Position numbers and translations under genes: made by a program
In this document: positions 5,677 through 21,683 of the stretch, in pieces
How positions within the stretch are numbered: the stretch's first letter is position 1
Layout: each line of letters starts with the position of its first letter
The notes under the pieces: generated by a model
What the model was told of the DNA's origin: nothing
The model's database searches: none
Seen by the model: only the letters and a program-made list of their open reading frames with translations
Source: Paraprevotella clara YIT 11840
GTDB lineage: Bacteria; Bacteroidota; Bacteroidia; Bacteroidales; Bacteroidaceae
Reading direction: 5' to 3'
DNA length: 64,000 nucleotides
NCBI RefSeq assembly: GCF_000233955.1
Contig: NZ_JH376616.1
Location: 248,001 to 312,000, forward strand

Positions 5677-5682
5677 TCCCAG

Positions 5683-5719
5683 AAATGGGGCAAGCGCATC
5701 AGCCACTTGCCCCTATTTT
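5683..5719 (+). terminator. Rho-independent terminator after lutC
   Basis: GGGGCAAG (5687-5694) pairs with CTTGCCCC (5706-5713) and is followed by TATTTT. It lies just after the lutC stop. Confidence 0.75.
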
Positions 5720-5785
5720 CATTCTCTCACGGAAGCCTATTTTTCAAAGGAATATTCAGCATTTGCGCCTTTCATATACCCACCA

Positions 5786-7057
5786 TCACCTTTCCGCCAC
5801 CCTGTATCGGTTTCCGTAATGCGTGTGCACTTTCTGCACCCCTGCGGCCACGAGGGCCTGGGCCAACTTGGGCAGCGTCACGCCTGCCATCGCTCCGGGT
5901 TCCAACCGCCGCAACCGTGCGAAAATTTCGGGCAGCGAAAGCGGGCGTACCTTCTCGTTTGGCTGAGCCGCACGATAGTAACGGCGTAATACCTCCCCAG
6001 CCGGGCAGATGCGGTAGAAAGCCGCGTTGTGCAGTCGCAGGGCATTCTCTTCCCCGTGGCTGAACCAGTACCGTTCCCCGTTTTCCAGTTCTGCTTTCAG
6101 TTGGGCGTAGACCTGCGCATGGTCGATGCCCGTGCTGTCGATAGGATGCTCCACGAGCACACAGATGAACCTACGGCTTCCCGAAGGGTCGGAAAGCAGT
6201 TCGCGCGAGTTGGACGTGCCGATGAAGGAGGCGATGCGCGGCAGGGCTTGGCTGTGCCGCCGGTACGCCTTGCGCAGGTTGAGGGCGGAGAGCTGCATGA
6301 GGTTTTTCAGGAGCGGGTGTTTCTTCTCGGGTATGCGGTCGAACTCGTCCAAGTTCAGCAGCCCCATCTCGGTGAGTTGCCGTTCCACTTTGTCGGGACG
6401 CACGAGGTCCACGCTGTCGGTGTAGTAGGCCTGCAACTCTGGTGGCAGCAGGGCGCGGCAGAAGGTGGACTTTCCGAGTCCTTGTTCGTCGCTGACGAGA
6501 AGGGGCGCGGTGCTGTGTGCGTGCAGCCCGTCGGAGAGTCCGGCCCATTGTGCGGCCAGTCCGAGCATCCACCGGTGGAAAGCCTGTACCCATAAGGGAC
6601 TGTCCGACACACGGGTGGCCAGTCCGTGAAGTCGGTCGCGTCCGTCCCATGCCGGGAGGCGTTGGAAATACTGCCGGAAGGGATGGTATTCCCGCACGTA
6701 GGCGGAGTGCACCATGCGTGCCACGTCGCGGTCCCAACAGTCGATGCCGTGGCGGTGCGCTTCGAGGCAGATGGCGTTCAGGTCTCGTTCCGTGGCGGGC
6801 CGGAAGGTTCCGTTTCTCTTATCTGATTTGCTACGGAATTCCGTGACTTCTGTGAGCACGTTGAAGCGGAATTCGTATCGTTCGGCGAGGAAGCCGCCGA
6901 GGGCGGACTCGAGGTTGGCAGCTTTTGGGGATACTGCCTCACGGACAGCGGGTGCGGCCTCCGGTAAGGAAGTACGATGGGTATCCGACGTTTTGTCCGT
7001 ACGACGTTTTTCATTCCACCGACAGACGGCGGCATGCGCGATTTTCTTGAAGTCCAT
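5786..7057 (-). CDS. VapE-like P-loop protein (primase-helicase type)
   Basis: A protein of about 423 residues of the virulence-associated protein E family, common in Bacteroides as a short chromosomal module. It has a Walker A motif EQGLGKST (residues 191-198 from the start chosen here), a Walker B motif LLNLDEFD (233-240) and a sensor-like GTSNS. The C-terminal winged-helix-like tail ends in HYGNRYRV. VapE proteins are related to replicative SF3-type helicases of phages and islands; the cellular role of the Bacteroidales version is unknown. The frame is open to a TTG at 7093, but that codon overlaps a good -7 promoter box, so I take the ATG at 7057 (MDFKKIAHAA). The gene is much richer in GC than the flanking cluster. 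The partners often found with it (DUF4248, HU-like protein, amidase) are absent. Confidence 0.75.
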   Translation of the reverse strand: MDFKKIAHAAVCRWNEKRRTDKTSDTHRTSLPEAAPAVREAVSPKAANLESALGGFLAERYEFRFNVLTEVTEFRSKSDKRNGTFRPATERDLNAICLEAHRHGIDCWDRDVARMVHSAYVREYHPFRQYFQRLPAWDGRDRLHGLATRVSDSPLWVQAFHRWMLGLAAQWAGLSDGLHAHSTAPLLVSDEQGLGKSTFCRALLPPELQAYYTDSVDLVRPDKVERQLTEMGLLNLDEFDRIPEKKHPLLKNLMQLSALNLRKAYRRHSQALPRIASFIGTSNSRELLSDPSGSRRFICVLVEHPIDSTGIDHAQVYAQLKAELENGERYWFSHGEENALRLHNAAFYRICPAGEVLRRYYRAAQPNEKVRPLSLPEIFARLRRLEPGAMAGVTLPKLAQALVAAGVQKVHTHYGNRYRVAER

Positions 7058-7090
7058 AGGCTTTGTGTTTTCTGTTATGTTTTCCACCTG

Positions 7091-7122
7091 CAAATATACG
7101 ACATGAAAAAGCCTTTGTCAAG
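7091..7122 (-). promoter_or_regulatory. Promoter of the VapE-like gene
   Basis: Read on the minus strand, TATATTTG (7098-7091) is a perfect -7 box and CTTG (7122-7119) a near-match to TTTG, with a 20-base spacer. It overlaps the TTG at 7093 and so favours the ATG at 7057. Confidence 0.55.
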
Positions 7123-7125
7123 CCC

Positions 7126-7252
7126 TTCACCGTAACGCGTTGAAAACCAATGCAACTGCAAATTCGTTAAAAACAATTTCATGCGGACAACCCGTTTTCC
7201 GGTGAAATCCCGGTGAAGGATTGTACGGTAGAAAGTTCACCTTAAAGCGTTG
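7126..7252. repeat. TTCACC/GGTGAA repeat region
   Basis: TTCACCGTAACGCGTTG (7126-7142) recurs as TTCACCTTAAAGCGTTG (7236-7252). Two inverted copies of the core, GGTGAA, lie between them at 7201 and 7212. It lies upstream of the VapE-like gene. Function unknown: it could be an operator, binding sites for the P-loop protein, or the edge of the module. Confidence 0.55.
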
Positions 7253-7707
7253 GTACAGAAGAGGTATGAAGGAAGCGAACCTTTTCGGGAGAAAAACTGT
7301 TTGTAGGAGGTAGAGTAAGATGAATCTTTCCCACGGCTATCCATGCTTTTTCCTGATTCGGTTTTCAGTATGAAAGGGGGCATAAGATGGAACCAGTACA
7401 TCCAAAAATCGAACTCAGGAGATTGAAAAATCGTTTGCAGCAGAACGGAAAATCGTTTGGCGCAGATTATATCGCCATTTTTGTATGCCATAAGGCCTAC
7501 ATCTTTCATTATAATTTTCTTTTCATATTGTTCTTTATCATTGTTATAGCCTTACGTAATGTCATTCGTTTCTTTTGATATATGACCTCTATTTGTGTTC
7601 CCTTGTATACGAAAGGGACAGAATCAAATAGTGCCGGGCAAGTAGCAAAGCCCCATTTTATTATTATTTCCAACTTTTTAATATTAGTTTTGAAATAAGT
7701 CTAAATA
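7253..7707. other. Intergenic stretch without a convincing gene
   Basis: An AT-rich gap between the VapE-like module and the end of the glycosyltransferase operon. A 90-codon minus-strand frame (7509-7237) lacks a recognisable family, a promoter or good coding character, and I do not accept it as a gene. No terminator or RNA gene could be supported. Confidence 0.5.
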
Positions 7708-10700
7708 TTATTTTTCATTTGTACGAATCAAATTTTTGAAAAGCCTAATTAGTTCCGGCACATGGGAATCGAAAGTAAAATTCATTCTTTGTTTCATGAC
7801 ATTTTGTGCCAATAATGCCATTTTCTTTGTGTCATGTAAGTAAATGGATAATTCTTCTATGTTGTTATACAAAATTCCAATATTTTGTTCTTGTAATAAG
7901 TTTTGTGAAGCGACTTTGCAGAAAGGATTATTTCGTTGTATCATTGGAATTCCAGCGGCTGCAAATACTCCGATACGGCAGGGATAGTTGATGTCATCCC
8001 ATGACAAGCGAAGCAAGTCATCCTCGTTGTCGCTGATAAAGTTATGCAACCAGCCTGCATCGTATTGTGAAAATTCTTCTACCCAATGATTGGCGGGGCA
8101 GTGTGCATGCACATGAAAATGACGAGGAGCTATCTCAAGACAGTATTGCGTCATTTCATTTTTTTGTTTGTGATAGCTTTCTGAATATAAATGTATATGA
8201 ATATTGTTTTGTGCTAAATGTTTTAGTTCTTTGGTAGTTAATCCGATCATTCGTCCTACGACAACCGTATGGATAGCATTGTCTTGGGATGATAGCTTTC
8301 TAGAAAAGTTATTTGTGAAATATTCTTGTTTAGGTAATTCCAAATCTAGTATCATATAGGGTTTATCATTAGCCTGAAACTGTTCGAACCACAATTTTGT
8401 CATTTCATTGGTGAAAATGTTGGCTGCAGAATGGCAATATAACTCCATCAGATGTGCCCACTCTCCATATCTTATACAAATCTGTGGTCCTTCTTTTAAA
8501 TGCCACACAAAAGGAATTTGTATTCCTGCATGTTGTAGTGCTGTTATGCTGTCATAAACAAATCGGATGGAAGTTGCACTGAAAACTGTATAAATAATAT
8601 CTGGTCTGATGTCTTTTACCCGTTCAATCCAAAATTCGTCATTGGGTATGTCTTCGATATTTCCAAATGGAAAAGGACCGACAGATTCGTAAGCATATAA
8701 CGGTTCAGGTTTCCAATATCCATATAACTTACATCCATGTATTTCCAAGGAGCAAATTCGTTCAGGGTTATAGGCCAACGAACCAATAATCAGAATTTTT
8801 AATTGTACTTTTTCTGTATATATATGTGGTATAGTTTTATAAAGTTCATGTTCGTTAATGATTTTATATTCCGACATGCGGATGCGTATGGGGGTTTTTA
8901 CATGGTAATACCATTTGTATTTATATATACTTCCTCCAAAGTTTTCATTGCAAATTTTATGTCTTTGATATGGGTGGTTAGTCCAATTAGCAGTAATTTG
9001 GCAAGTAGGTACAAATAATCCTTGTCCAACAAGCTTGTTCCAAAACATGATGAATAGGTCTTCTGTAACCATTTCCTCTCTTTCCATCCATTTGTTTTTT
9101 GTTTTTCGATGTGCTGTTTGTACTAATTGAAGAGAGTATCCTTTTCTACAGCCTAAAGTTTTTGTATCGCTTCTTCTAAAAAACGAATCGGTATCATTAT
9201 ATTTCATACCAGAGAACGTCAATATGGTATTGCTTTCATATTCAAATATGTTCTTAAAGTTTTCCAAGTGGCAAGGATAGTAAAAATCGTCAGCAGGTAA
9301 ATATGCGATATGAGAAAATCTTGCTTTTTCTAACCCTTTGTTTAGTGCATACCCCAATCCTTTGTTTTGCAAATAAGTTATATAAGTTATTCGTTTGTCC
9401 TCTAATTCAGTTTGTATTACATCATGACTACAGTCGGTTGAGCCATCGTTCACGATAATTAGCTCCCAATTTTTTAAGGTTTGTTTTTTCAAACTGAGTA
9501 TGGCTCTTTTGACAAAATGTCCTTGATTATATATGGGCATAATGACAGAGAATCCGGTAAATGGATACTTGCCTTTATTTATATTTTCTATTTCAGGGAA
9601 TAGAATTCGTGAAGTAAGGAACAGAGAATTCCATGCTGTTTGCAATATTTTGGGATAAAGTGATTCTGATGAGGAAATAGCCATATCCAAATAAGGAATA
9701 AAGAATTTGAAGAGCAAAGAAATTCCGTTCGTGCTAATTTTAGGACAGTCGTTGACTCCCTTGTTTTTAAGTATTTTTACGGTATTATCGAGTATTTCAC
9801 ATTCTTCTTTATAGATTGTGTGTTGGGTGTTTTCCGAATTTGACAATCTTATGGAATAATACCATACCAATCCCAAAAGTTGTCCTGCGGGCAGAACCTT
9901 TAAGTCTGTTTTTATCTTTTTATTAATGAATGCACATGCTTCGATTAATATGTCATTGGTATCGTTGTAGATGAATCCATTTTGTGCCAACCATTCAACA
10001 CACCAACAGAATCCTGGCAGTCCGGAAACAAAATTCATATCATTTCTGAATAAAGATGCTTTTTTCCCCACTTTTTCAATGAGGGTTAAGGACATGTCCG
10101 CAAAGAGTTTTTTTTCAGATATTCTTGAGTATGCTGCGAGAAACAACGCACAACCTGTAATACCGTCCAATCCAAGTCTGTTGATTTTGTTGCTTCTTAT
10201 TAATTTCATGATATTGGAAGCCGAGGTTTCAGACATCCTGATAATTTGTTTGTATTGGTCGCGGTTGATGATATTTACCGTATGATCATGGGAGTTGGGG
10301 ATGTAGCCCCATTCGTAGATGTGGGTATCTAAATTGTATTTTTTGATATATTCAGACGCTTCTTGTGCATTTTTCGGATTGAAAGATTGAATAGGACGAG
10401 TATGTACCATGTGGATTTGGTCTATGATTGCCATATCCCGATGGTTTGAACCAATGAGTTTTGCCCAATGGTATTCTGTTCCCCATCCGCTTTCATTGGC
10501 GTTGAATGTATGTAATACCTTTTTCAACGCTTGTCGTGAAAAACAGGGAAGCATCATTTCCACGAAGTTAGTATAACGTAAAAGGCAATACTTGTCACGT
10601 AAAGTATGCGGATGGCTAAAATAAGATTCAGACAAAGAGGGCTGCGCTATTTCCAAATGATATTCTTTCATTAGTTCGAACAATCGGGCTATTTGGAAAG

Positions 10701-11721
10701 CATCAGTTTGAATATCATCGTCTGGGATAAAGAAATATTCATAGTGTTCCAAATACTCCGGATGATGCTGTAAATAATCAAATACCAATTTTAGTTTATA
10801 TCCTTTGCTGTAACTGATAAAGTCGGCATCGTCATAAAAATTATTGAACGATTGGTCATATACAATCAAATGTAAGTCAAACAAGGCGGATTCTTTGCCT
10901 TTCGACCACTCTTTGTGTAAACTGTTAGAACCTACAGATGAGATTATGCAATATTTTTTTAGCTTGTATGCTGTGGACATATACTTCTCTTTTATGGGAT
11001 GGTAAAGCATATCGGCCCTTTTTTCTTGAGGTTTTAACGGGAGGTGTGAAAAGGTGTTTTTATCGTAAAGTTTGTTGCGAAATCCTTTAATCACATAATA
11101 ACCGTCCCCACCCATATCGGCTATACTACATCCCCGTAAAGACAGCAAGGTGGGGATTAATACTTCATGATGCCCGCTCCAACCATTTGAAAGTGCTTCG
11201 TGGATATATGAAAGTGCTCGGACAGACAATCTGTATACCGGATTGAAAGAATGTATCTTGTTGTTATTGTCGAGGCATTCGTTTCCTGTATGTAAGGTCT
11301 TCCACCAGGGCCATTCTGGCTCTTCCTGATAAATTTTCAGATATGCTGAAATAAGGTCAAAAGAATGTGTAGTGAATAAGTTGAAAAAAGAATCCCAATT
11401 ACCATTAAAATACACGTCATCTTCAATGAGCCAATAGTAGTCATAGTTAGGGTATGATAGGTAAAACTTAAGCAAAGGGAAATGATTGCTGCCCGGCAAT
11501 AATTGTTGTCCTATGGGGGTGTATCCCATATTATGCAAAATATCGGAAGTGAATGTATAATGTGGGACACTTTTAATTGTATCCGGGACTTCTTGTTCCT
11601 TTTGATGATACAAAAATATCGTATCATTTGCGTCATCTCTATTCATAATCGATAGCTTGTCGATTTTTTTTATGGTGCAAAAATCAGATTTTCCGCTCAA
11701 AAAGAGTATAACTTGCTTCAT
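7708..11721 (-). CDS. Giant multidomain glycosyltransferase with LanC-like segment
   Basis: A 1337-residue protein with at least five recognisable parts. Residues 1-240 are a GT-A-like module with WLIEDDVYF (97-105). Residues 255-470 resemble DUF707, with FFIPDDDIQ (330-338) and GWGTEYHW (412-419). Residues 515-720 resemble the LanC alpha/alpha toroid, with glycine-rich LGLDGITG and SGLPGFCW, but I see no CHG zinc-ligand motif. Residues 723-945 are a family-2 glycosyltransferase: FSVIMPIYNQ, VNDGST, PADDF. Residues 974-1337 look like a GT-B fold. No signal peptide or membrane helix is visible, so it is probably cytoplasmic. It is the last gene of the exporter operon, 32 bases after the TolC-like gene. 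I infer that it glycosylates the exported GG-leader protein or an associated glycan; acceptor and sugars are unknown. Confidence 0.8.
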   Translation of the reverse strand: MKQVILFLSGKSDFCTIKKIDKLSIMNRDDANDTIFLYHQKEQEVPDTIKSVPHYTFTSDILHNMGYTPIGQQLLPGSNHFPLLKFYLSYPNYDYYWLIEDDVYFNGNWDSFFNLFTTHSFDLISAYLKIYQEEPEWPWWKTLHTGNECLDNNNKIHSFNPVYRLSVRALSYIHEALSNGWSGHHEVLIPTLLSLRGCSIADMGGDGYYVIKGFRNKLYDKNTFSHLPLKPQEKRADMLYHPIKEKYMSTAYKLKKYCIISSVGSNSLHKEWSKGKESALFDLHLIVYDQSFNNFYDDADFISYSKGYKLKLVFDYLQHHPEYLEHYEYFFIPDDDIQTDAFQIARLFELMKEYHLEIAQPSLSESYFSHPHTLRDKYCLLRYTNFVEMMLPCFSRQALKKVLHTFNANESGWGTEYHWAKLIGSNHRDMAIIDQIHMVHTRPIQSFNPKNAQEASEYIKKYNLDTHIYEWGYIPNSHDHTVNIINRDQYKQIIRMSETSASNIMKLIRSNKINRLGLDGITGCALFLAAYSRISEKKLFADMSLTLIEKVGKKASLFRNDMNFVSGLPGFCWCVEWLAQNGFIYNDTNDILIEACAFINKKIKTDLKVLPAGQLLGLVWYYSIRLSNSENTQHTIYKEECEILDNTVKILKNKGVNDCPKISTNGISLLFKFFIPYLDMAISSSESLYPKILQTAWNSLFLTSRILFPEIENINKGKYPFTGFSVIMPIYNQGHFVKRAILSLKKQTLKNWELIIVNDGSTDCSHDVIQTELEDKRITYITYLQNKGLGYALNKGLEKARFSHIAYLPADDFYYPCHLENFKNIFEYESNTILTFSGMKYNDTDSFFRRSDTKTLGCRKGYSLQLVQTAHRKTKNKWMEREEMVTEDLFIMFWNKLVGQGLFVPTCQITANWTNHPYQRHKICNENFGGSIYKYKWYYHVKTPIRIRMSEYKIINEHELYKTIPHIYTEKVQLKILIIGSLAYNPERICSLEIHGCKLYGYWKPEPLYAYESVGPFPFGNIEDIPNDEFWIERVKDIRPDIIYTVFSATSIRFVYDSITALQHAGIQIPFVWHLKEGPQICIRYGEWAHLMELYCHSAANIFTNEMTKLWFEQFQANDKPYMILDLELPKQEYFTNNFSRKLSSQDNAIHTVVVGRMIGLTTKELKHLAQNNIHIHLYSESYHKQKNEMTQYCLEIAPRHFHVHAHCPANHWVEEFSQYDAGWLHNFISDNEDDLLRLSWDDINYPCRIGVFAAAGIPMIQRNNPFCKVASQNLLQEQNIGILYNNIEELSIYLHDTKKMALLAQNVMKQRMNFTFDSHVPELIRLFKNLIRTNEK

Positions 11722-11753
11722 GTCCTTAATAAGATTAAAGTTAATGGATTTAT

Positions 11754-13253
11754 TTAGTAAATAGGTAAAGTATAAGATAAATTTTCTTCTTTTTCAAAAT
11801 CATACAACGTCAATGTACGTATCGTATAATAATAAGTCCAGTAATCGCTTAATGCCTGTTGGTAATTACGTTGTGCTTCTTGTTGGCGGTTCAAGGATAA
11901 TGTTACGGAACTGACATCCTCTTTACCTAAAATGAAACGTGATTTATATATTTGGTAAGACGATAGTGCCATTTGGAATGCCTTTTGCGCTTTGTCGGTC
12001 AAAATTCTGTTTTGGTTAAATCGCAGGGTCGTTTGCAACACTTTTTCTTTCAGGTCTTCTATATTTTGGTTTACGGAAATCCTGATTTGTTCTAAATTGC
12101 TTTTGGCGGCATTCCTTTTGCTTTTTCCGGCTCCCCAATCCAAGATAGGAACCTTTATGCTCATACTGAAATAATCTTGCCTTGGCAGATGGGAATAGGC
12201 TTCGTGAAATTTTCCGGCAGCTTTGTTGAATCCGATACCAACCGAAAAAGAGGCATCAACCCCAGTTGTTTTCCTTATTCGTTCCAAGTCTTGTTCCGAT
12301 TCTCTAACCTGCATGTGGGCTTCCAATACGTTGGGATTATTCGTTTGCATGAGGCTGACTGCTTTCTGGGGAGAAATCGAAGAAATTTTAGGAAGCGGCG
12401 GAATTTCCAACTCAATGTCCATTGGCTTATCAATTTGCAGAAATAGCAGAAAGGAAGAAAGAGCCTCTTCCTTTTGGTGCGCTATTTGGACGGAAGCATT
12501 CTCTGCATTGATAAGGTCTACTTGCAAAGCCAATAGGTCCGCTTTTGATATGGCTGACATTTTATACCGTTCTTTTCCGGCAGAATACAGGGAATCGCAA
12601 GAATGCAGCGTTTCCGAAGCCATCCTATGCTCTTCTTGCAGCAATGCCAAGTCGAAAAAACGGTTGACGGTTTCAAGGATTGTGGATTCCATGGCATAGA
12701 TGTATTTTTGACGGGCTATTTGGTATTTTAGAGGCTCTATCTTCTTGCTCCACTTTAACGGATTATAACCGAACAGCGATTGTGAATAACCGAGGCTTAC
12801 TGGAACGGTTGAGTATTGCTCGTTGTTGTCTGTTCCTATATTCCTGATATAGTCCAATCCGGAAGAAAGGGTGAGAGTGCCTCCCGTAAAAGGGATGGAT
12901 TGGGATACAGACAAGCCCAATGACGTGGCCCAATAACGCTGTGGACGGTAGATATCTATATTTTGGGTGTAGTCGTAACGTTTGATGAACGTACGGCTAT
13001 ATTCTATGGGAGTGGTTTGCAATACAGCTTGGGGTTTAAGGCCGGCTTGGTAAGCTTTATACAACCAATAGGAAGATAAAAAGGCATGTTTATGCTTGAG
13101 AACTTCCGGTGACTGTCTTATAGCTATTTCTATGCACTGGTCCAATCTCATGTTCAAAACTTGCCCCAAGGCTTGCTTGGGAAAAAGCGTGATACCCAAA
13201 AGGAGAATGAATTTATGTATTTTATTATACGTTTTTTCCATGATGATTTGCAT
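11754..13253 (-). CDS. TolC-family outer-membrane channel protein
   Basis: A 499-residue outer-membrane efflux protein of the TolC/OEP type. The N-terminus has a signal peptide (KFILLLGITLFPKQALGQ) followed by MRLDQCIEIAIRQSPEVL, the typical first helix of OEP domains. The rest is long amphipathic helices with two repeated halves, as in trimeric channel-tunnels. Its ATG overlaps the stop of the HlyD-like gene (TAATG), so the two are translationally coupled. With the C39 ABC transporter and the adaptor it completes a type I-like secretion route from cytoplasm to outside. Confidence 0.9.
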   Translation of the reverse strand: MQIIMEKTYNKIHKFILLLGITLFPKQALGQVLNMRLDQCIEIAIRQSPEVLKHKHAFLSSYWLYKAYQAGLKPQAVLQTTPIEYSRTFIKRYDYTQNIDIYRPQRYWATSLGLSVSQSIPFTGGTLTLSSGLDYIRNIGTDNNEQYSTVPVSLGYSQSLFGYNPLKWSKKIEPLKYQIARQKYIYAMESTILETVNRFFDLALLQEEHRMASETLHSCDSLYSAGKERYKMSAISKADLLALQVDLINAENASVQIAHQKEEALSSFLLFLQIDKPMDIELEIPPLPKISSISPQKAVSLMQTNNPNVLEAHMQVRESEQDLERIRKTTGVDASFSVGIGFNKAAGKFHEAYSHLPRQDYFSMSIKVPILDWGAGKSKRNAAKSNLEQIRISVNQNIEDLKEKVLQTTLRFNQNRILTDKAQKAFQMALSSYQIYKSRFILGKEDVSSVTLSLNRQQEAQRNYQQALSDYWTYYYTIRTLTLYDFEKEENLSYTLPIY

Positions 13254-14584
13254 TATAGTTCCCTGACACTAAGGTTGTCAAACAGGCGTTCCAGCAAACG
13301 CCGGTCCTTGACTATGATATCTGCAATGCCTCCAAGTTCATATTGGAAATCTAAAGTATCGCCGTAATTGGTGATCAGCCCATTGGGAAGTTCTACCGTA
13401 ATCAGGTAGGTTTCTACTGTGTTTTCGACAGACTGTTGTGTTTGGGTAAGAATGGATATTGAATGCACCCGTCCTTCTATGCTGCCATATTCACGGTAAG
13501 GGTAATTATCCAATTTGATGGCGACTTTGTTTCCTTTGCTCACCTTTCCAGCTCCCATCGATGGTAATAGAAGTTGCCCGAATATTTTGTTTTCTGACGG
13601 CAGTATGCCGAAGACTTGTTCTCCAGCCTGTACATATTGGTTTTCCGAAACAAACTTCAAGAAGTCTACTTTTCCGTCGAACGGGGCTTTAAACACATAA
13701 CGTTGCTCCCACGACTTGATGTTGTCACTCAATTCCTGGTAAGCCGTAAGCAGATTTAAATGCAGCTTTTGTGCTTCATTCATTTGTTCTACATCAAGCA
13801 GGTGTGGGTTGTTCCAATTGTCTGCCGTTTGTTTTTGCAGGCTGATGATTTCCTTTTTCAGACTTTGTTCCTCCTGAATCGTGGAAAGATATTCATTTTT
13901 AGCCTGGTCTATTTCGTATTCATACGTTATAATGTCGTTTTTATTGGCTGCAGCGTATTTGTCTAACCATTTTTGAGACAAGGTCAATTTGCGCCCTACA
14001 GTTTCCAAAAGTTCTTTTGAAGAGGTTTGAAGCCGTTCGTTCCAACGAATGTTGTCCATGATACCTTTCCGTTGTTTTTCGTACGTATTTTCTTGCCAAT
14101 AGCTGATTTGGTTTTTCAATGCTGTAAAGAATATATAATATTGTGCATTCAGTTCACCCAAAGAAACGGTTTCAGGAAACGGATTATGGGCATTGTCGCG
14201 TGTTAGTTTTTCCGGATGGAACTTTTCAAGCAAGGAAGCTACTTTTTTCATGTCCGATGTCGAGGCTGGGTTTTCAATGACTGCAATATAATCGCCTCGG
14301 GAAATGTATGTTTGGTTCTCGTCTATCATCAGATGTATGTTTCCCGAACTCATGGATACTAATTTTACTGATGCATGATCCGAATTGATCTTTATGGCAC
14401 CTGTCACGGTATCCGGGTACTTGACCACCCATCCAAGGAGCAGGATTAGCAAGGCCAGCGCCGTAACCAACCAAGCCATTTTACGACCGAACGAGGTCGG
14501 CATGCGGTCGATGATGTCGGTGATTTCCTCGCTGCGCCTGTTTGTGCTTGGAAGCTGTGGGTTATTCTTTCGTGTCCAGTTCAT
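13253..14584 (-). CDS. HlyD-family membrane fusion adaptor
   Basis: A 443-residue periplasmic adaptor. It has a cytoplasmic head of about 35 residues, one membrane helix at roughly 37-54 (MAWLVTALALLILLLGWVV), a lipoyl-like half (VSMSSGNIHLMIDENQ...YISRGDYIAVIE), a long coiled coil (about 150-290), then the second half (APFDGKVDFLKFVSENQYVQAG) and a beta-barrel end. It bridges the inner-membrane C39 exporter and the TolC-like channel. Its first 23 bases overlap the end of the exporter gene, and its stop overlaps the TolC start. The gene order exporter-adaptor-channel is typical of bacteriocin-type exporters in Bacteroidales. Confidence 0.9.
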   Translation of the reverse strand: MNWTRKNNPQLPSTNRRSEEITDIIDRMPTSFGRKMAWLVTALALLILLLGWVVKYPDTVTGAIKINSDHASVKLVSMSSGNIHLMIDENQTYISRGDYIAVIENPASTSDMKKVASLLEKFHPEKLTRDNAHNPFPETVSLGELNAQYYIFFTALKNQISYWQENTYEKQRKGIMDNIRWNERLQTSSKELLETVGRKLTLSQKWLDKYAAANKNDIITYEYEIDQAKNEYLSTIQEEQSLKKEIISLQKQTADNWNNPHLLDVEQMNEAQKLHLNLLTAYQELSDNIKSWEQRYVFKAPFDGKVDFLKFVSENQYVQAGEQVFGILPSENKIFGQLLLPSMGAGKVSKGNKVAIKLDNYPYREYGSIEGRVHSISILTQTQQSVENTVETYLITVELPNGLITNYGDTLDFQYELGGIADIIVKDRRLLERLFDNLSVREL

Positions 14585-16763
14585 ATTGGTTCTGTATCAG
14601 TTGATAATAATATTGTTTGTTTTGCATCAGTTGGTCATGATTGCCCGTTTCTATAATGGAACCGGATTTGAGCACTACAATTTGGTCAGCTTTCCGTATG
14701 GTACTCAATCTATGGGCTATGATGATGACCGTGCGGTTCACGAATACGTTGTTCAGTGCTTTTACGATTTTTTGTTCATTGATGGTGTCCAACGCATTTG
14801 TGGCTTCGTCCAAAAAAAGATAATCCGGTTTTTTATATAGGGCGCGGGCTATAAGCAAGCGTTGCCGCTGTCCTCCGCTCAGCCCCCTTCCCATTTCTCC
14901 TATTGTGGTCTGGTAGCCTTGTGGCATGGCTTCTATTTCCTTGTTGATGCAAGCCACTTCTGTAGCCCGTTTTAGGGCATCATAGTCTATGTTTTCTTCG
15001 TTCAATACGATGTTGTTCTGAATGGTATCGTTGAAAAGTTTACCATCTTGCATCACGCATCCGCATTTGGAACGCCATTCTCTCAACCCGATATTGTTGA
15101 TGTTCATTTGCCCGATACTGATTTCCCCATATGATGGAACATACATTCTTAGAAGCAGCTTCAAAAGGGTGGATTTTCCACATCCGCTGTCTCCTACAAT
15201 GGCAGTCACTTTTCCCTCAGGGATAGTCAAGTTTATATTTTTCAAGACGATGGGTGCGTGCGGTGAATACCTGAACGACAAATTTTTCACTATCAAGCTC
15301 TTATCCTTGGGCAAGGCAAGGCTGTTGGAAATGATGGGGGATGTATCGTCTTCATCTTCCAATTTATGAATCTCATTGATGCGCATGAAGCTGATTTTCG
15401 CGTATTGGGCAGACTGTATGAAACTGACAAATTGCATGATGGGGCCGTTCATCATACCTATAATAAATTGAGTGGAAATCATCATGTCGAAAGTGATTTG
15501 TCCGTTGATGACGGCCACGGCGCAGAAAAACGTGACTCCTATGTTGGTTAGGCTGTTAATGAAATTGGCTCCAAGCATTTGGGTATTGTTGATATTAAGT
15601 ACTTTCAAATTTAGGTTGTAAATCCGTGCTTGAATGGCTTCCCATTTCCATCTTTTGATGTCTTCATAGTTGTTTATTTTGATTTCTTGTATGTTTCCAA
15701 TAGTTTCCACCCAAAAACTTTGATTTTTGGAATTCAGTTCAAAATATTCCCAGTCCAATTTCTTGCGGACGCTCAGAAACGTGAGTACCCAAATGACATA
15801 TAAGGCGTTTCCGGCAAGGAAAATGAAAAAAATCCCTGAATTATAGACCAGAAGGATTATGCTGAACACTACAAATGTGACAGCAGAAAAAAGAGTACTC
15901 AGGGAGTTGTTCATAATAAATGAGCGGATGCGTTCATGGTCGTTGGCACGTTGCAGGATATCGCCTACCAATTTGTTTTCAAAGAATGTCACGGGAAGTT
16001 TCATCAGTTTGATCAGGTAATCCGAAATGAGCGAAATGTTTACGCGCATGGAAATGTGCATTAGAATCCAATTACGCATGATGTTGGATAATGTGATACT
16101 CAATAGCAATACGATATTTCCCACTAACATCATATTAATAAAGGTTATATCTTGTGTGTAAATGCCGATGTCTATAACCGATTTGGAAATGAAGGGTAAT
16201 AACGCTTGTAAACCTGTGGCTAACAGCATGGCAAAAAGCAGAATGCCAAAGGTCTTTTTATAAGGAATAAAGTATCCCATGAAATTTTCCAATGTCTTGA
16301 ACCGTTCTATGCGTTCATGTGCTTCTATTTGTTTGAAGTTAGCCATGGGTTGTAGTCCCATAAGTTTTCCATAGCTTTTTTGAGGTTCATACCATTGGTT
16401 GATAAATTCTTGCAACGGATAGTAGAGCAAGCCTTTTGCCGGGTCGGACACATATATCCGCCCTTTTCTGATTTTATAGACTACTATAAAGTGGTCGTGC
16501 TTCCAGTGTACGATACAGGGTAGCGGTACCCTTTCCATCAAATCCTGTAGGGTTGCTTTTATGGCAAGGCTGCGTAAGCCAATCTTTTCTGCAGCATAGC
16601 TGATGTCTAAAAGTGAAACTCCTTCGCGTGTGATGCCACAAAGGTCCCTCAAATACTGCAAGGAATAGTATTTGCCATAATATTTGGCAATGATTTTCAA
16701 ACAGGCAGGTCCGCAATCCTTGGCATCCATTTGATATTCATGAGGAAATTTGTTAAATATCAT
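14562..16763 (-). CDS. C39 peptidase-containing ABC exporter (PCAT)
   Basis: A 733-residue bifunctional exporter that cleaves double-glycine leaders and pumps the cargo. The N-terminal C39 peptidase has its complete active site: Gln11, Cys17 (DAKDCGPAC), His91 (HDHFIVVY) and Asp107 (VSDPAKG). Membrane helices span about 165-440. The nucleotide-binding domain has Walker A GDSGCGKST (524-532), signature LSGGQ (628-632), Walker B YLFLDE (648-653) and His684 in the H-loop. It is the first gene of the leftward operon and diverges from the GG-leader gene at 16910, which is its most likely substrate. All catalytic residues are intact. Confidence 0.95.
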   Translation of the reverse strand: MIFNKFPHEYQMDAKDCGPACLKIIAKYYGKYYSLQYLRDLCGITREGVSLLDISYAAEKIGLRSLAIKATLQDLMERVPLPCIVHWKHDHFIVVYKIRKGRIYVSDPAKGLLYYPLQEFINQWYEPQKSYGKLMGLQPMANFKQIEAHERIERFKTLENFMGYFIPYKKTFGILLFAMLLATGLQALLPFISKSVIDIGIYTQDITFINMMLVGNIVLLLSITLSNIMRNWILMHISMRVNISLISDYLIKLMKLPVTFFENKLVGDILQRANDHERIRSFIMNNSLSTLFSAVTFVVFSIILLVYNSGIFFIFLAGNALYVIWVLTFLSVRKKLDWEYFELNSKNQSFWVETIGNIQEIKINNYEDIKRWKWEAIQARIYNLNLKVLNINNTQMLGANFINSLTNIGVTFFCAVAVINGQITFDMMISTQFIIGMMNGPIMQFVSFIQSAQYAKISFMRINEIHKLEDEDDTSPIISNSLALPKDKSLIVKNLSFRYSPHAPIVLKNINLTIPEGKVTAIVGDSGCGKSTLLKLLLRMYVPSYGEISIGQMNINNIGLREWRSKCGCVMQDGKLFNDTIQNNIVLNEENIDYDALKRATEVACINKEIEAMPQGYQTTIGEMGRGLSGGQRQRLLIARALYKKPDYLFLDEATNALDTINEQKIVKALNNVFVNRTVIIIAHRLSTIRKADQIVVLKSGSIIETGNHDQLMQNKQYYYQLIQNQYELDTKE

Positions 16764-16868
16764 AAGTTTTTCATTATTATTATTGCAAATATCGAAAAAT
16801 TTTCCATACTTTGTAAGCAGATAATAGAATATATTTTATCCTTTGTTGATTTTGTGAAGTTGAAGCGA

Positions 16869-16876
16869 TAAGTTTG
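16869..16876 (+). promoter_or_regulatory. -7 box for the GG-leader operon
   Basis: TAAGTTTG matches TAnnTTTG and lies 33 bases before the ATG at 16910. A TTTG at 16842-16845 is 23 bases upstream of it, slightly more than the usual spacing. The 146-base gap must also hold the promoter of the exporter operon, which I could not place. Confidence 0.5.
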
Positions 16877-16909
16877 TTTTTTATATTAACTTAATTTAAT
16901 TTTAGTCAT

Positions 16910-17494
16910 ATGAAAAAGCTAAGCAAGTTGTCTATCTTTGACGAGTGTATGAATCCCGAATTGTCGGAAAATGAGATGCGCGAAACCGTAGGGGGAAATG
17001 GGGGTGATTATTCTCAAAATTGGTGTTTCTTTAATTGTATGGCTTATTTGCATAAAGAATATAGAGGGTATAACATAGATGCCAGTTCGATTGCAACAGA
17101 TTATTTTCAAGGGACGGCAAATACGAATGATGATTGGAATGGAACGGGTGACATAAAAGACTATGCGTATGGCCCTATGGCATACACGGATAAAGAACGG
17201 ACTACTCCCAATCAGGAGTTATTTGATTATATGAGTAATTATTTTGAAACGGATACAGGAAGTTGGGAACAAAATAAAGTTTCATCTCTATTCAATAAAA
17301 ATGGCTCAACAGCATCAGGAGAGTACGTTGTTGGTATTTTTGGAAGTTCTTCAGGAAAGTACCATGCTGTCATTTTTGAATCTTACAGTGATGGAAAATA
17401 TAAGTACTATGACCCAAGCTATAAGACCGAGAGTACGGTGGACGAAAAATATGTCCAATTTGCGGGAAAGGTAACTGGTTATAAGGATTTTTAA
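16910..17494 (+). CDS. Double-glycine-leader protein with papain/C39-like core
   Basis: A 194-residue protein. Residues 1-29 form a Bacteroidales-type GG leader: MKKLSKLSIF, then LSENEMRETVGG, with cleavage expected after Gly29. The mature part of about 165 residues is not a small peptide. It opens with SQNWCFFNCMAYL (Gln36, Cys39, Cys43), has AVIFESYSDGKYKYYDPS with His152 just before it, and Asp168. This Gln/Cys...His...Asp order and spacing resembles papain-like peptidases of the C39 or AvrRpt2 type; Cys39 or Cys43 could be the nucleophile. It is divergent from the C39 exporter, the obvious route out. I infer a secreted cysteine peptidase or toxin, or a pseudo-enzyme. A structural precursor for modification by the LanC-like and glycosyltransferase proteins is the main alternative. 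Confidence 0.7.
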   Translation: MKKLSKLSIFDECMNPELSENEMRETVGGNGGDYSQNWCFFNCMAYLHKEYRGYNIDASSIATDYFQGTANTNDDWNGTGDIKDYAYGPMAYTDKERTTPNQELFDYMSNYFETDTGSWEQNKVSSLFNKNGSTASGEYVVGIFGSSSGKYHAVIFESYSDGKYKYYDPSYKTESTVDEKYVQFAGKVTGYKDF

Positions 17495-17502
17495 AATCCT
17501 GA

Positions 17503-18201
17503 ATGATTAAAAGAAAGGGATTATTTATGTTTATAATAAGACATATGAAGCCGTTTTTTGTATGGGGATTATTGGTGGTGATAGGAGGTATTCACGCCTT
17601 TGCAGCACCAACAGGTGGGAAGTTGGAAGACAGGGACAGAAGTTGGGTTACAGATAAAAATGAAGAGAATGGTTTCCAAACTGATTTGGAATTCAATAAA
17701 TTACCTGTTGCAATGTTGTTGAATAATGTGTTTATTAAAAGTGATATAGGAATAGACTTGTATAAAGTGGAGAAAAAAGAGTTCCCGTACTATTACATAA
17801 AGCGTGAACACAAGCCTTTCATTATACGTGGTGTAGGGAAGGATGGTCGGGACTCCATCGTGTTGGAAAAGGATGCATCTCCAGACAACCCTATTGAAAT
17901 CAATGGGGAATCTTATATTTTCGTCCAAAACCTGATTTCTTCCCAAAAATTTGATTTGGCATCATTGGAGGAGATTAAAGAGGAATTTTGCCCGGACGTG
18001 ACAGAGCCATGTTTGTATATGGTCAATAAATTCTTTATCACGAAGGATGTGGGGTCTTATAAATTGGATCGGAACTTTGTGTTGAAAGTAGAGGCGTTGC
18101 CTTCTTCGGAAATAGTTTTTTTTAAGGGTAAAGAACCATTCACTATCATACGGATATTTACCAATACGCCTGGTAACCGTTACGCGCCAAGGATAAGGTG
18201 A
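17503..18201 (+). CDS. Secreted paralogue A of unknown function
   Basis: A 232-residue protein with no family I recognise, first of three tandem paralogues. The ATG at 17503 is eight bases after the GG-leader gene; a start at 17545 (MKPFFVWGLLVVIGGIHAFA) gives a cleaner signal peptide and may be the true one. The mature part shows two similar halves: NVFIKSDIGIDL...KPFIIRGVG and NKFFITKDVGSYKL...EPFTIIRIFT, an internal duplication. The layout faintly recalls the plug region of SusC proteins (a short 'V-DG' strand, then a 'GV-I-T' strand), but that is only a resemblance. Probably periplasmic or surface-located; it may be a partner, receptor or immunity factor for the exported GG protein. Confidence 0.65.
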   Translation: MIKRKGLFMFIIRHMKPFFVWGLLVVIGGIHAFAAPTGGKLEDRDRSWVTDKNEENGFQTDLEFNKLPVAMLLNNVFIKSDIGIDLYKVEKKEFPYYYIKREHKPFIIRGVGKDGRDSIVLEKDASPDNPIEINGESYIFVQNLISSQKFDLASLEEIKEEFCPDVTEPCLYMVNKFFITKDVGSYKLDRNFVLKVEALPSSEIVFFKGKEPFTIIRIFTNTPGNRYAPRIR

Positions 18202-18224
18202 GGATTTTAATTGGGAATGAAGAT

Positions 18225-18842
18225 ATGAAAAGGATTTTACTTTTGGTCAATATGACCTTGGGATTGGGGACTTTGGTAAACCATGCCGTTGCCAATATAA
18301 CGCATGACGAGAAGCCCGGTTATTATAGTGATAACCGTACGGACTTGGAATTCAACGGGAATACGTGTGGAGTCATGGTAAACGGCTTCTTTGTGAAAAG
18401 TGACATTGGAATTGATTTCCGTTCCGTGGAACATCTTTACCAGAGGCCATCCGTACCCTATACCATAAAAGGAGTGGGGGAAAACGGATTGGACTCTATT
18501 GTAGTAGAGGCTGCTCCGAGTGAAAAGAATCCGGTAGTTATAAATGGAATTCCATATTCTGATATTGTAAATTATGTACAAGAAAAAGAGGCTGAATGGG
18601 TTACTTTGGAGGATATAAAGAAACTGTATTTCCCGAAGGTTACAGGAAAGTGCTTGTATATGGTTAATAAATACTTTATCACAAAGGATTGGGAGTCTTA
18701 TAGATTGGATAAGGATTTCATATTGAAAGTGGAGGCATTGCCCTCTTCGGAATGTGAAATTTTTGAAGGCCAATCTCCCTTTACCATTATTAGGGTTTTT
18801 ACGAATATAATATCTAACCACAACTCTGGACGCATCGGGTGA
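18225..18842 (+). CDS. Secreted paralogue B of unknown function
   Basis: About 205 residues, second of the three paralogues. The frame is open from a GTG at 18198 that overlaps the previous stop, but the ATG at 18225 starts a signal peptide (MKRILLLVNMTLGLGTLVNH) and is preferred. It shares with A the blocks TDLEFN, NGFFVKSDIGIDF, DSIVVEA, NPVVINGIPY, CLYMVNKYFITKD, DKDFILKVEALPSSE and FTIIRVFTN. The two-repeat layout is the same. Sequence identity to A is high in the C-terminal half and low near the mature N-terminus, as expected for diverging secreted paralogues. Confidence 0.65.
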   Translation: MKRILLLVNMTLGLGTLVNHAVANITHDEKPGYYSDNRTDLEFNGNTCGVMVNGFFVKSDIGIDFRSVEHLYQRPSVPYTIKGVGENGLDSIVVEAAPSEKNPVVINGIPYSDIVNYVQEKEAEWVTLEDIKKLYFPKVTGKCLYMVNKYFITKDWESYRLDKDFILKVEALPSSECEIFEGQSPFTIIRVFTNIISNHNSGRIG

Positions 18843-18887
18843 TTTTATGGATTAAATTGGAGTAAGATATATAAAAAATAATGGGTT

Positions 18888-19541
18888 ATGAAAAATATTC
18901 TTTTCCCTTTTGGCATCATTATTGGTGTCTTCTTCTGTTGGTTTCCGTCTTATTGCGTTGCCGGGATACAGCTTCCTCCGACATGTGTAGATTCAAAAAC
19001 GGATCAAAACGGATTCTTGAATGAATTGTCCACTGAGGATTTTAACAAGAGTACTATCGGGGCCTTAGTGGATGGAGTGTTTGTAAAGAGCCTGATAGGA
19101 GTGAATATGGACTCTTTGCGTACGTTCAATGTTGTGAGTGATGGTCCTTTGACTATAAAAGGGATAAAGACGGAAAATGATTCGATTGTGGTGACGCAAA
19201 AGGATTTTCATAAGAATCCGGTACGGATTAATGGCGTGGACTATACCCGTTTTGCTTGCACTTCGTTTGGAAAGAAAGTGGAACTCCTTTCTTTGGATGA
19301 CATACGAAAGACATATTTTCCTCAGATGGGGAACACGCCTTGCATGTATATGGTCAACAAGTTCTTCCTGATGAATGATTTGTCTTCTTACAAGTTCGAC
19401 AAAGATTTCATCTTGAAAGTGGAACTGTTGAAATCGACGGATTTCGAGGAGTTCAAACATGCTCCGTTGTTCCATATCATTCGGATTTTTACGAAAACCC
19501 GGGAGATTTTGAAACACCATAATGTTATGCGCCTAAGGTAA
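18888..19541 (+). CDS. Secreted paralogue C of unknown function
   Basis: A 217-residue protein, the most diverged of the three. The signal peptide is MKNILFPFGIIIGVFFCWFP followed by SYCVAG. Conserved blocks are VDGVFVKSLIGV, DSIVV, NPVRINGVDYT, CMYMVNKFFLMND, DKDFILKVELLKS and FHIIRIFTKT. The gap before it is 45 bases; seven bases follow before the glycosyltransferase gene. Its place in the operon ties it to the export system. No enzyme motif is visible, so any function is a guess. Confidence 0.65.
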   Translation: MKNILFPFGIIIGVFFCWFPSYCVAGIQLPPTCVDSKTDQNGFLNELSTEDFNKSTIGALVDGVFVKSLIGVNMDSLRTFNVVSDGPLTIKGIKTENDSIVVTQKDFHKNPVRINGVDYTRFACTSFGKKVELLSLDDIRKTYFPQMGNTPCMYMVNKFFLMNDLSSYKFDKDFILKVELLKSTDFEEFKHAPLFHIIRIFTKTREILKHHNVMRLR

Positions 19542-19548
19542 ACCTGAT

Positions 19549-20295
19549 ATGGAAATACAACATAAAATACCTCTTCATGATGTCGCATTCCTACTGATAG
19601 CCAGGTTTGACACTATTGTCAGATTGGAAAATACCGTACATGTAGCCCGCTATTTGAATGACAATTTTGAGACCAATATCCATCTGTGGGAATGCGATTC
19701 ATTTTATAATGGATTCTTAGGAAAATTGTTGCCTTCGAATGTCCACTATGCCTTTAGGGAAGACCACGATCCAATCTTGCACCGTACAAGATACATCAAT
19801 CAGATGGTCCGGTCTGTGGAAGTTCCCTATGTTTCGGTTTGGGATGTGGATGTGGTGGCACAGCCATCCCAAATTGTCAAAGCCGTGGAATTATTGAGGC
19901 AAGGGACGGATTTTGTTTATCCCTATGAGAAATATTTTTTAGACACCTCTGCCGTGTTGCGGAGGGAATACCTGAAGCATGGCGATTTGAAAGTCTTGCA
20001 GGATTATTGGCGTTTTATGACGGAAATGTATCCTCCCAACCCCGTAGGAGGGGCTTTTTTAGCCAATCGGGAATCTTATATCCGCAGCGGTTTGGAAAAT
20101 GAAAACTTCTACGGTTGGGGGATAGAAGACGGGGAACGCTTTGCGCGGTGGAAAAACATGGGATTTACGATAGAAAGGATAGAAGGACCAATTTTCCATT
20201 TGTCGCATCCAAGGGGCATCAACAGTGCCATTCCTCATCCAGTCTTTTCTGTGGCTAAACATAGGGAATATCTTAAATCAATCCGCAAAAAATGA
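19549..20295 (+). CDS. GT7-like (galactosyltransferase-type) glycosyltransferase
   Basis: A 248-residue GT-A enzyme. VSVWDVDVV (about residues 98-106) supplies the DxD metal/nucleotide-sugar site. The C-terminal motif ENFYGWGIEDGERFARW closely matches the GWGxEDxE signature of the GT7 C-terminal domain found in beta-1,4-galactosyltransferases and bacterial chondroitin-type polymerases. It has no signal peptide or membrane helix, so it is cytoplasmic. It overlaps the following LanC-like gene by four bases, so the two are translationally coupled and may act together. The likely acceptor is a protein or glycan of this cluster; sugar and acceptor cannot be deduced. Confidence 0.8.
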   Translation: MEIQHKIPLHDVAFLLIARFDTIVRLENTVHVARYLNDNFETNIHLWECDSFYNGFLGKLLPSNVHYAFREDHDPILHRTRYINQMVRSVEVPYVSVWDVDVVAQPSQIVKAVELLRQGTDFVYPYEKYFLDTSAVLRREYLKHGDLKVLQDYWRFMTEMYPPNPVGGAFLANRESYIRSGLENENFYGWGIEDGERFARWKNMGFTIERIEGPIFHLSHPRGINSAIPHPVFSVAKHREYLKSIRKK

Positions 20296-21353
20296 TAGAA
20301 ACAACAAAAGATCGTTTGCTTTCTCTTATCATGGAGGGGGCGAGACAGAACCGACAAGAGGGATTCGGGCTGTTCAAAGGGGACATGGGAGTATGTTTGG
20401 CTTTGTTTGTCCTGAATCGGGAGAAAAAGGATCCGGTGGTGGAAGACTTTGCCGATAATCTGATAGACCGTATATATGCACGGGCAGCTAAGGAGAAGAA
20501 AGCCTTTTTTGATACCGGGTTTGCCGGTATTGGATGGGGAATCAACTATCTGATGGAGGACCATTATTATGAAGGAGATGTGGATGAAGTCCTAAAGGAC
20601 ATAGACGCTGCCGTATTTAAAGAAATCAATACTGTGTCTGGTATACCTGCCAATGTAAGTAATGGCCTGTTAGGATATTTAATATACAGTGTAGCAAGAT
20701 TAGGGAACCCAGAACATGTCCGGAACACCGTGTTACATGAAATAGATAAGGACTTTTTGCGTGGGCTTATTGTCCGGATTGACAAGATTTCCCCCACCAT
20801 ATTTTCATCAATATGCAAGGATGAATATTTCACGTTGTTATGGCACGTACCTTTGTTGTTAGTGCTATTACGTAGGACTTTGGATTTAGATGTGTTTAAT
20901 GATAAGATCATTAATATGGTCAAAACGTGGTTGTTTTATTTAGAGACGAACCAGCCTTATCTCCATATCAACAAATTGTATTTGGCAGTATCGCTTGCTT
21001 ATTTGAACGAGTATTTATGTTTTCCCGAAATTAAAAGGCGTATAGAAGTATTGATGTTTTCTGTTGACCTGTCCAAGATTGAAGATGAACTCGACATCCG
21101 CATCATGAATATTAATGACGGATGGTTTGGAGCAGTTGCCATTTTAAAAAAAGCTGAAGACTTGTTAGATATGGGTATTCCGCAATATGAATTGCTTCGG
21201 GAGACGAGAATCAATATATTGGAAAAATACGGTGCTTTGTTTGATGATTATATCAATGAGACCAATAGGGAAAAGCCTTTAGACATTAGTTTTGTTCATG
21301 GATTGAGCGGAATAGGTTTCTTGCTATTTCTATGGCCGGAAGCTTTTTCCTGA
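20292..21353 (+). CDS. LanC-like alpha/alpha toroid protein
   Basis: A 353-residue protein with the glycine-rich repeat pattern of LanC and LanC-like proteins: FKGDMGVCLALF (28-39), DTGFAGIGWGINYL (74-87), SNGLLGYLIY (123-132), NDGWFGAVAIL (275-285) and FVHGLSGIGFLLFL (334-347). In true lanthionine cyclases the last motif is CHG and, with another Cys, binds zinc; here Val precedes His336 and no clear Cys pair is visible, so classical thioether cyclisation is unlikely. No LanB or LanM dehydratase was found in the window. A second LanC-like segment lies within the giant glycosyltransferase at 7708. It may be a scaffold or a non-zinc enzyme acting on the exported protein. Confidence 0.75.
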   Translation: MIETTKDRLLSLIMEGARQNRQEGFGLFKGDMGVCLALFVLNREKKDPVVEDFADNLIDRIYARAAKEKKAFFDTGFAGIGWGINYLMEDHYYEGDVDEVLKDIDAAVFKEINTVSGIPANVSNGLLGYLIYSVARLGNPEHVRNTVLHEIDKDFLRGLIVRIDKISPTIFSSICKDEYFTLLWHVPLLLVLLRRTLDLDVFNDKIINMVKTWLFYLETNQPYLHINKLYLAVSLAYLNEYLCFPEIKRRIEVLMFSVDLSKIEDELDIRIMNINDGWFGAVAILKKAEDLLDMGIPQYELLRETRINILEKYGALFDDYINETNREKPLDISFVHGLSGIGFLLFLWPEAFS

Positions 21354-21653
21354 CTTCGTCAATGCGTACCCCAAAATTCGGGGGTGTAAAATAAACTGTG
21401 TCATGCGTTATTCTTGTTCAAGCTCATCGGTCGGGGGACGGCCTGCGCCAAGGGGCGGGACCACCCGTCCCGACGAGCGTAAAGTTACAACAATTTAAAC
21501 CTGCCTCCAAACTTTATCGCCAGTTGTCCTCCACGACCGCCCAATAGACCAGTCCAATTTGTCCACGACGAGCAAGCCGCAATTTCCTGACAACATATAG
21601 AACCATAGGAATACTTCATTGCATGAAGAACCTTACTATTTTTAGAAAAACTT
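21354..21653. mobile_element. Possible insertion-element remnant
   Basis: About 300 bases without an intact gene and richer in GC than the lanC-like gene. On the minus strand two short peptide-like ends are seen: KLRLARRGQIGLVYWAVVED ending NWR-stop near 21525, and LGAGRPPTDELEQE-stop near 21414. The latter is followed by GACACAGTTTATTTTACACC (21404-21385), which reads like an insertion-sequence end. CTCATCGGTCGGGGGACGG (21423-21441) can fold with CCGTCCCGACGAG. I read this as a decayed transposase end at the border of the accessory cluster; the family is not certain. Confidence 0.35.
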
Positions 21654-21683
21654 AATGCACCCTAATCTTTTTTTGGCACGTGT

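Follow-up and report, generated by a model that had tools for sequence, protein, structure and literature searches.

A 64,000 nt stretch of the Paraprevotella clara YIT 11840 genome (contig NZ_JH376616.1, positions 248,001 to 312,000; hereafter the window) carries a ten-gene cluster that, in our judgement, has an even chance of being a system for producing, tailoring and exporting a single antibacterial enzyme while shielding the producer, that is, a toxin exported by type I secretion with secreted immunity proteins. The basis at hand is the gene content, the linkage of a GT7-like glycosyltransferase gene and a LanC-like gene to an exporter, the Cys, His and Asp residues and predicted fold of the cargo protein, the linkage of the cargo to secreted paralogues, and the retention of those paralogues as orphans. 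The cluster is arranged as two divergent operons, and all ten open reading frames are open at the places given in Table 1. The minus-strand operon encodes a C39 peptidase-ABC transporter (P0004), a HlyD adaptor (P0003), a TolC channel (P0002) and the 1337-residue giant glycosyltransferase P0001; the plus-strand operon encodes a protein with a double-glycine (GG) leader (P0005), three secreted paralogues (P0006 to P0008), the GT7-like P0009 and the LanC-like P0010. These reading frames and families, which an earlier note on this DNA had assigned, were all confirmed. A GG leader, C39-ABC, HlyD and TolC are all present together in the cluster, the leader scoring just under its curated cut-off. 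Below, G and L followed by a number label genomes and loci, respectively.

The earlier note had proposed that the cluster exports a glycoprotein or a new type of modified protein. This proposal stands in part, as the exporter, GG protein, GT7 and LanC-like genes were sought in other genomes and are a real recurring set in Bacteroidota. An exported antibacterial enzyme with an immunity array nevertheless fits better than a modified glycoprotein alone, because the secreted paralogues persist after loss of cargo, exporter and enzymes and because the cargo is papain-like by prediction.

The cargo, P0005, is predicted to be an enzyme-type protein of the papain-like (CA) clan. Its leader scored 23.0 bits against the TIGR04149 GG-leader model (cut-off 25), and that of its relative in L089 scored 26.4, over the cut-off. 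P0005 itself matched no Pfam family and, when searched alone against a sample of 392 other genomes of the order, detected no relative at E 0.001; the cargo family was assembled via the neighbours of GT7 genes. Cys and His are present in all seven members and Asp in six. L177 to L180 were left out of this family, L177 matching in the leader alone and the other three encoding different proteins with weak matches. The predicted structure of P0005 is a papain-like fold in which Cys, His and Asp are present, and in structural comparison the model resembled papain-like toxins among other papain-like enzymes, as well as processing peptidases, so that the fold supports an enzyme and not toxicity as such. 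A profile search of the PDB with the cargo set gave five non-significant matches, which we set aside: contact-dependent inhibitor A twice (0.13 and 0.18), 8ssk over the same stretch (0.48), 9l5u (0.97) and a viral capsid protein (0.47).

Other GG proteins broaden this picture. Three of them (P0014, P0015 and P0016) have a GTWxGGFV motif in common along with the GG leader; the motif is absent from P0005 and present in the L174 cargo, in which a GG leader was not recognised. The GG protein of L215 (genome G567) contains a Toxin-JAB1 domain scoring over its cut-off. In this locus (236-12844) a C39-ABC gene and the Toxin-JAB1 GG gene are followed by six DUF5030/P0006-type genes, the fourth being P0006-type, and then by a truncated second GG gene with a leader nearly identical to that of the first and a further gene that is DUF5030-like by eye.

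P0009 looks like an active glycosyltransferase, given the residues invariant among its relatives and its match to a known enzyme. In 20 relatives D99, D101, W190, G191 and D194 are invariant, preserving the DxD motif (D99xD101) and the WGxED region, and the GT7 profile matched beta-1,4-galactosyltransferase 7 in the PDB (E 4.6e-7). The LanC-like relatives keep D105, Y132, R136, P222 and six glycines invariant; the Cys-His zinc pair was found in 0 of 16 and its first Cys in two of 16. P0010 also gave weak matches, far under cut-off, to the cyclase part of the LanKC and LanM models. From these residues, a cyclase role for the zinc-less protein is unlikely, and P0010 may serve as a barrel that holds the substrate. 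The earlier note reported neither a LanB/LanM enzyme nor a radical S-adenosylmethionine (SAM) enzyme, and our searches of the ten proteins against Pfam and NCBIfam agree, with neither a dehydratase nor a radical SAM family among the matches; the scan for a dehydratase did not extend to the rest of the genome.

To place this pair in a wider context, a species-genome collection was scanned with a 20-sequence GT7 alignment, yielding 145 confirmed relatives; the top 80 of them, which make up 78 loci, were examined, several of these loci being from one strain or repeats of loci obtained in another way. By record title nearly all are from Bacteroidota; the others carry the labels Balneolaceae, Rhodohalobacter, Ignavibacteriota and Methanomethylovorans, the last probably through misbinning. 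GT7 was called in 77 loci; the gene called immediately after it is LanC-like in 64 of these, and 65 have a LanC-like gene no more than 5 kb away. The earlier note had named as evidence against a system the finding of glycosyltransferase or LanC-like homologues mainly apart from the exporter or GG protein. The opposite was seen: C39-ABC occurred in 36 of the 78 loci, HlyD in 35 and a GG-type call in 51, at least one of the three being present in 69, under a permissive GG rule of our own making that also takes unrelated proteins (signal peptides were likewise called by a home-made rule). Among the 29 loci with at least 8 kb on both sides, LanC was present in 27, C39-ABC in 16, HlyD in 17 and GG in 24, and every one held C39-ABC, HlyD or GG. 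The P. clara genome itself has three GT7 places, each with a LanC-like match within about 2 kb, and five C39-domain places in all in 4.2 Mb; set against this density, the 16 C39-ABC genes in 29 full-flank loci put the linkage beyond chance. Radical SAM relatives were found in eight of the 78 loci by a one-query search. Judged by gene content, the GT7-LanC pair goes together with GG/C39 export whether or not radical SAM is present.

Two further protein types were seen around GT7-LanC pairs. Relatives of a C39-like domain fused to VKOR and thioredoxin occur in 25 of the 78 loci (single-query search); such proteins, which form one protein cluster, lie beside or near the pair in L064, L067, L077, L078, L079, L080 and L082, Pfam having been checked for L064 alone. 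In L065 a 1081-residue protein with matches to TldD/PmbA C-terminal domains (2440-5685) lies behind the pair, and near two GG proteins there is a member of the TraB/PrgY/gumN family (8290-9180) for which a signal peptide is predicted.

No part of the cluster is more telling than the three secreted paralogues, a point that the earlier note missed. P0006, P0007 and P0008 share 35-49% mutual identity and have predicted signal peptides. Examined up to E 1, they matched no Pfam or NCBIfam family, and family searches thus assign them neither an immunity nor a housekeeping function. Two other leads were dropped: a relation to TonB plugs, suggested by eye, gave E 0.11 and a probability of 0.5% in hhalign against a three-sequence plug profile, itself a weak control, and the single match of the P0006 set in the PDB profile search, a eukaryotic THO subunit (E 0.05-0.07), was taken as chance. 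P0007 probably starts at ATG 18225 and not at GTG 18198, since its relative in L172 aligns from that point.

A decayed copy of the cluster in G474, a genome of the same genus, was informative. It lies on contig C48, outside the gyrA-clpC region, and still has the left flank with VapE, the intergenic region between the divergent operons and, both intact, relatives of P0007 and P0008 at 92% identity. Positions 16752-16895 of the window align at 81% to G474, where they stand directly before the P0007 relative. The exporter, P0001, P0005, P0006 and LanC were not found on this contig, and GT7 is a remnant there. The retained pair has dN/dS of 0.09-0.19 by three methods, a record that in part predates the loss. 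P0006-type genes were searched in 398 genomes of the family and found in 16. A cargo or GG toxin-like gene stands beside or near them in five (the window genome, G400, G525, G388 and G567), with G474 as a sixth case; the neighbouring cargo is intact in G400, truncated in G525 and reduced to leader and tail alone in G388. The losses in G474, G525 and G388 look independent, as these genomes belong to three genera. More generally, the gene after a large GG cargo had a signal peptide in 11 of 15 cases, against 277 of 1222 locus genes (p 4e-5), for a small sample of hand-chosen cargos that are not independent. Paralogous secreted genes of several unrelated families follow the cargo in six of 15 loci (interleaved in L062 and L215); of 755 pairs of neighbouring genes on one strand in these loci, 22 were paralogous, a figure not like-for-like with the six of 15, so we regard this as a pattern only. 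On the strength of their retention after loss of cargo, exporter and enzymes, their linkage to the cargo and the recurring secreted arrays, P0006 to P0008 look like immunity genes.

Several observations weigh against this assignment and the toxin reading built on it. In ten of the 16 genomes with a P0006-type gene no family cargo or remnant was found beside it, and most of the cargo-less genes of the same genus form a clade of their own, found beside groEL in L208, L209, L210 and L212, which would be the behaviour of a domesticated or housekeeping gene. In L174 to L176, P0006-type genes occur with cargo, but exporter, GT7 and LanC were not called in the stretches examined. L087 has a P0006-type gene adjoining GT7 and LanC, both intact, in a genome with one short C39 match and no cargo match. 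For cargo-less P0006-type genes, an immunity protein turned general shield would fit, and another function would fit equally.

If the cluster does encode an exported toxin with immunity, P0005 would be synthesised with its GG leader and, in the cytoplasm, P0009 paired with the zinc-less P0010 as substrate-holding barrel, together with P0001, would put a sugar on the cargo and extend it; glycosylation of any cluster product is something we infer. From what is known of these families, the C39 domain of P0004 would cleave after the GG, and the P0004/P0003/P0002 channel would export the papain-like domain of roughly 165 residues in one step. The exported P0005 may then attack the envelope or other targets of neighbouring Bacteroidota. 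P0006 to P0008 would act as periplasmic immunity proteins and, to judge from their retention after loss, the duplicated array may also cover variant toxins. More tentatively, and with somewhat less confidence than doubt, we suggest that this is one instance of a further Bacteroidota route for polymorphic-type toxins, in which enzyme domains with GG leaders (papain-like, HExxH or JAB-like) would be tailored in some cases by GT7 and a zinc-less LanC, exported whole by C39-ABC/HlyD/TolC and countered by secreted immunity proteins that are duplicated and remain in competitors as orphan shields, the zinc-less LanC barrel being a new substrate adaptor for protein glycosylation. If so, Bacteroidota would deliver tailored enzyme toxins by type I secretion, a means of attack on other bacteria that has been little explored. 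The occurrence in Bacteroidales of LanC-like genes that come with neither dehydratase nor zinc ligands would be explained by their partnership with GT7, and secreted P0006- and DUF5030-type proteins would be candidate shields in competing strains.

Other explanations share parts of this evidence. The exported protein could be modified for signalling or adhesion, with P0006 to P0008 as its receptors or surface partners. GG/C39 systems do export signals besides toxins, and P0006-type genes stand alone in many genomes, as a receptor could; we nonetheless consider this unlikely, though worth keeping in view, because the cargo is papain-like by prediction, a GG protein with a JAB toxin domain lies upstream of a P0006-type gene, and a paralogue was kept while the cargo was lost or broken in three genera. 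P0006 to P0008 could alternatively be the true substrates or cofactors of GT7 and LanC, with P0005 a secreted protease that matures them. The adjacent P0006-type, GT7 and LanC genes of L087, in a genome without a cargo match, would suit this explanation, as would the resemblance of the cargo model to processing peptidases. It is distinctly unlikely in view of G474, which keeps two intact P0006-type genes beside a GT7 remnant with LanC not found on that contig, of L174 to L176, where cargo and P0006-type genes occur with GT7 and LanC not called in the stretches examined, and of the predicted signal peptides, which would take P0006 to P0008 out of the cytoplasm along a different path.

The glycosyltransferases and LanC-like protein might also act on surface polysaccharide or outer-membrane glycans and merely adjoin the exporter, GT2, GT4 and DUF707-type domains being common in polysaccharide loci. 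No polymerase, flippase or sugar-nucleotide family was among the matches of the ten proteins, however, and the GT7-LanC pair tracks exporter or GG genes, making this explanation improbable. That the LanC-like proteins still cyclise the cargo in a lanthipeptide-type pathway has family membership in its favour and is very improbable indeed: the Cys-His pair is lacking in all 16 relatives and the ten proteins include no dehydratase. With the zinc pair missing, we rejected lanthipeptide cyclisation.

Among characterised systems, the cluster resembles the class IIb (siderophore) microcins of Enterobacterales in combining a GG leader and C39-ABC/HlyD/TolC export with a glycosyltransferase for tailoring and a neighbouring immunity gene (here a candidate). 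It differs in its enzyme-like cargo, where microcins are small peptides, and in candidate immunity proteins that are secreted and triplicated, where microcins have a single immunity protein in the membrane; by analogy, the two appear close in layout and not in cargo. Glycocins, in which an S-glycosyltransferase acts on a short Cys-rich peptide, likewise combine a GG-type leader, C39-ABC export and a dedicated glycosyltransferase, whereas the cluster has GT7-type and LanC-like proteins and a large cargo.

The earlier note's statement that the cluster fits no known system was too strong. According to the accessible part of Fernandez-Cantos et al. 2023 (PMC10352776), Bacteroidales clusters bring together GG precursors, C39 exporters, carbohydrate-active enzymes (CAZymes), radical SAM enzymes and LanC-like genes lacking the zinc ligands, eight of nine clusters carrying a radical SAM enzyme. 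The window cluster likewise has a GG precursor, a C39-ABC exporter, a zinc-less LanC-like protein and glycosyltransferases; unlike those clusters, as far as that part describes them, it has no radical SAM enzyme and has an enzyme-like cargo, a GT7-LanC pair and a secreted paralogue array. Immunity arrays and GT7 are not discussed there (PMC10352776). The window cluster is a radical-SAM-less relative of the published ones. Polymorphic toxins, including papain-like and JAB families, are described with a downstream immunity gene and polyimmunity arrays in the available portion of Zhang et al. 2012, which also reports that Imm65, tied to Tox-JAB-1, is itself secreted (PMC3482391); a predicted papain-like domain, a JAB-type domain in L215, a downstream candidate immunity gene and an array are found here too. 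The delivery systems named in the abstract of this main survey of polymorphic toxins do not include the GG/C39 type I export of the cluster, and the route would, if real, be an addition to that list; the full text uses 'double-glycine leader' once, in a context that was not seen, and may name it there (PMC3482391). Both GG/C39 export and the occurrence of zinc-less LanC together with CAZymes are already known from Bacteroidales. A search of the open-access literature, which leaves out most subscription papers, turned up no description of GT7 and LanC as one unit, of GG cargos resembling enzymes or of secreted arrays retained as orphans.

P0001 is a fusion of several parts. Residues 1-235 (GTa) are glycosyltransferase-like (DUF3405, 0.00073, below cut-off), residues 233-452 match DUF707 (3.9e-15), residues 519-632 match LANC_like (0.00022, below cut-off; 1.2e-17 as iE with our own iterated profile) and residues 725-864 match GT2 (1.7e-26), while the C-terminal part, about 980-1337, gave a weak glycosyltransferase match alone (0.0025). 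Relatives of GTa or DUF707 occur in 13 of the 78 GT7 loci (single-query search).

Table 1. Features of the divergent cluster and its left neighbour, in window coordinates.
Feature	Position	Strand	Basis or remark
VapE/DUF3874 gene	5786..7093	-	Left neighbour of the cluster, not part of the machine; a relative also adjoins the decayed G474 copy
P0001, giant glycosyltransferase fusion	7708..11721	-	GTa, DUF707, LanC-like, GT2 and C-terminal glycosyltransferase-like part
P0002, TolC-type outer-membrane channel	11754..13253	-	OEP 5.1e-32
P0003, HlyD-type periplasmic adaptor	13253..14584	-	HlyD_3 4.9e-13; TIGR01843 1.2e-25, below its cut-off
P0004, C39 peptidase-ABC transporter (PCAT)	14562..16763	-	Peptidase_C39 8.5e-36, ABC membrane, ABC_tran 1.1e-31
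Divergent intergenic region	16764..16909	.	Between P0004 and P0005
P0005, cargo, 194 residues	16910..17494	+	GG leader, residues 1-29; predicted papain-like domain with C39, H152 and D168
P0006, secreted paralogue 1, proposed immunity protein	17503..18201	+	Predicted signal peptide, paralogy
P0007, secreted paralogue 2, proposed immunity protein	18225..18842	+	Intact relative kept in G474
P0008, secreted paralogue 3, proposed immunity protein	18888..19541	+	Intact relative kept in G474
P0009, GT7-like glycosyltransferase	19549..20295	+	Glyco_transf_7C (PF02709) 1.1e-7, 31.9 bits, cut-off 23
P0010, LanC-like protein without zinc pair	20292..21353	+	LANC_like 1.2e-8, 34.5 bits, cut-off 23.2

The genomic setting of the cluster fits an acquired island, given the 18.8 kb between gyrA and clpC in the window (2848-21654), genes that are near-adjacent in most of the six same-genus genomes compared (we take the names gyrA, clpC and groEL from recognition of the sequences). 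Three genes at 2979-5676, the VapE/DUF3874 gene and the cluster occupy this gap. In L235 to L238, four of these six, gyrA adjoins clpC directly across 0.1-0.5 kb; a fifth (L234) has a 1.3 kb gap with short open frames alone, and the sixth, G474, has 4.3 kb of other DNA. The GC content of the cluster stretch is 35-42%, and that of the nearest stretches on either side 47-55%. PADLOC found nothing of weight in the cluster, and its MTase_II match on P0009 (0.0025) was taken as chance.

Minor observations concern other GG clusters. The second, larger GG/GT7/LanC cluster of the P. clara genome (L062, contig C28) contains at 10015-10711 two consecutive genes, the first for P0011, a GG peptide of 88 residues whose core is hydrophobic, and the second for the membrane-type protein P0019 of 142 residues; the pair resembles a bacteriocin and its immunity protein. 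Erythromycin-esterase-like homologues were seen in L062 (11585-13405), L074 (16400-18118), L081 (10527-12254) and L083 (3-1505), with the Pfam family Erythro_esteras assigned for L062 and L081; in L062, L074 and L081 the gene comes straight after that of a large GG protein, and its product carries a signal peptide under the same home-made rule.

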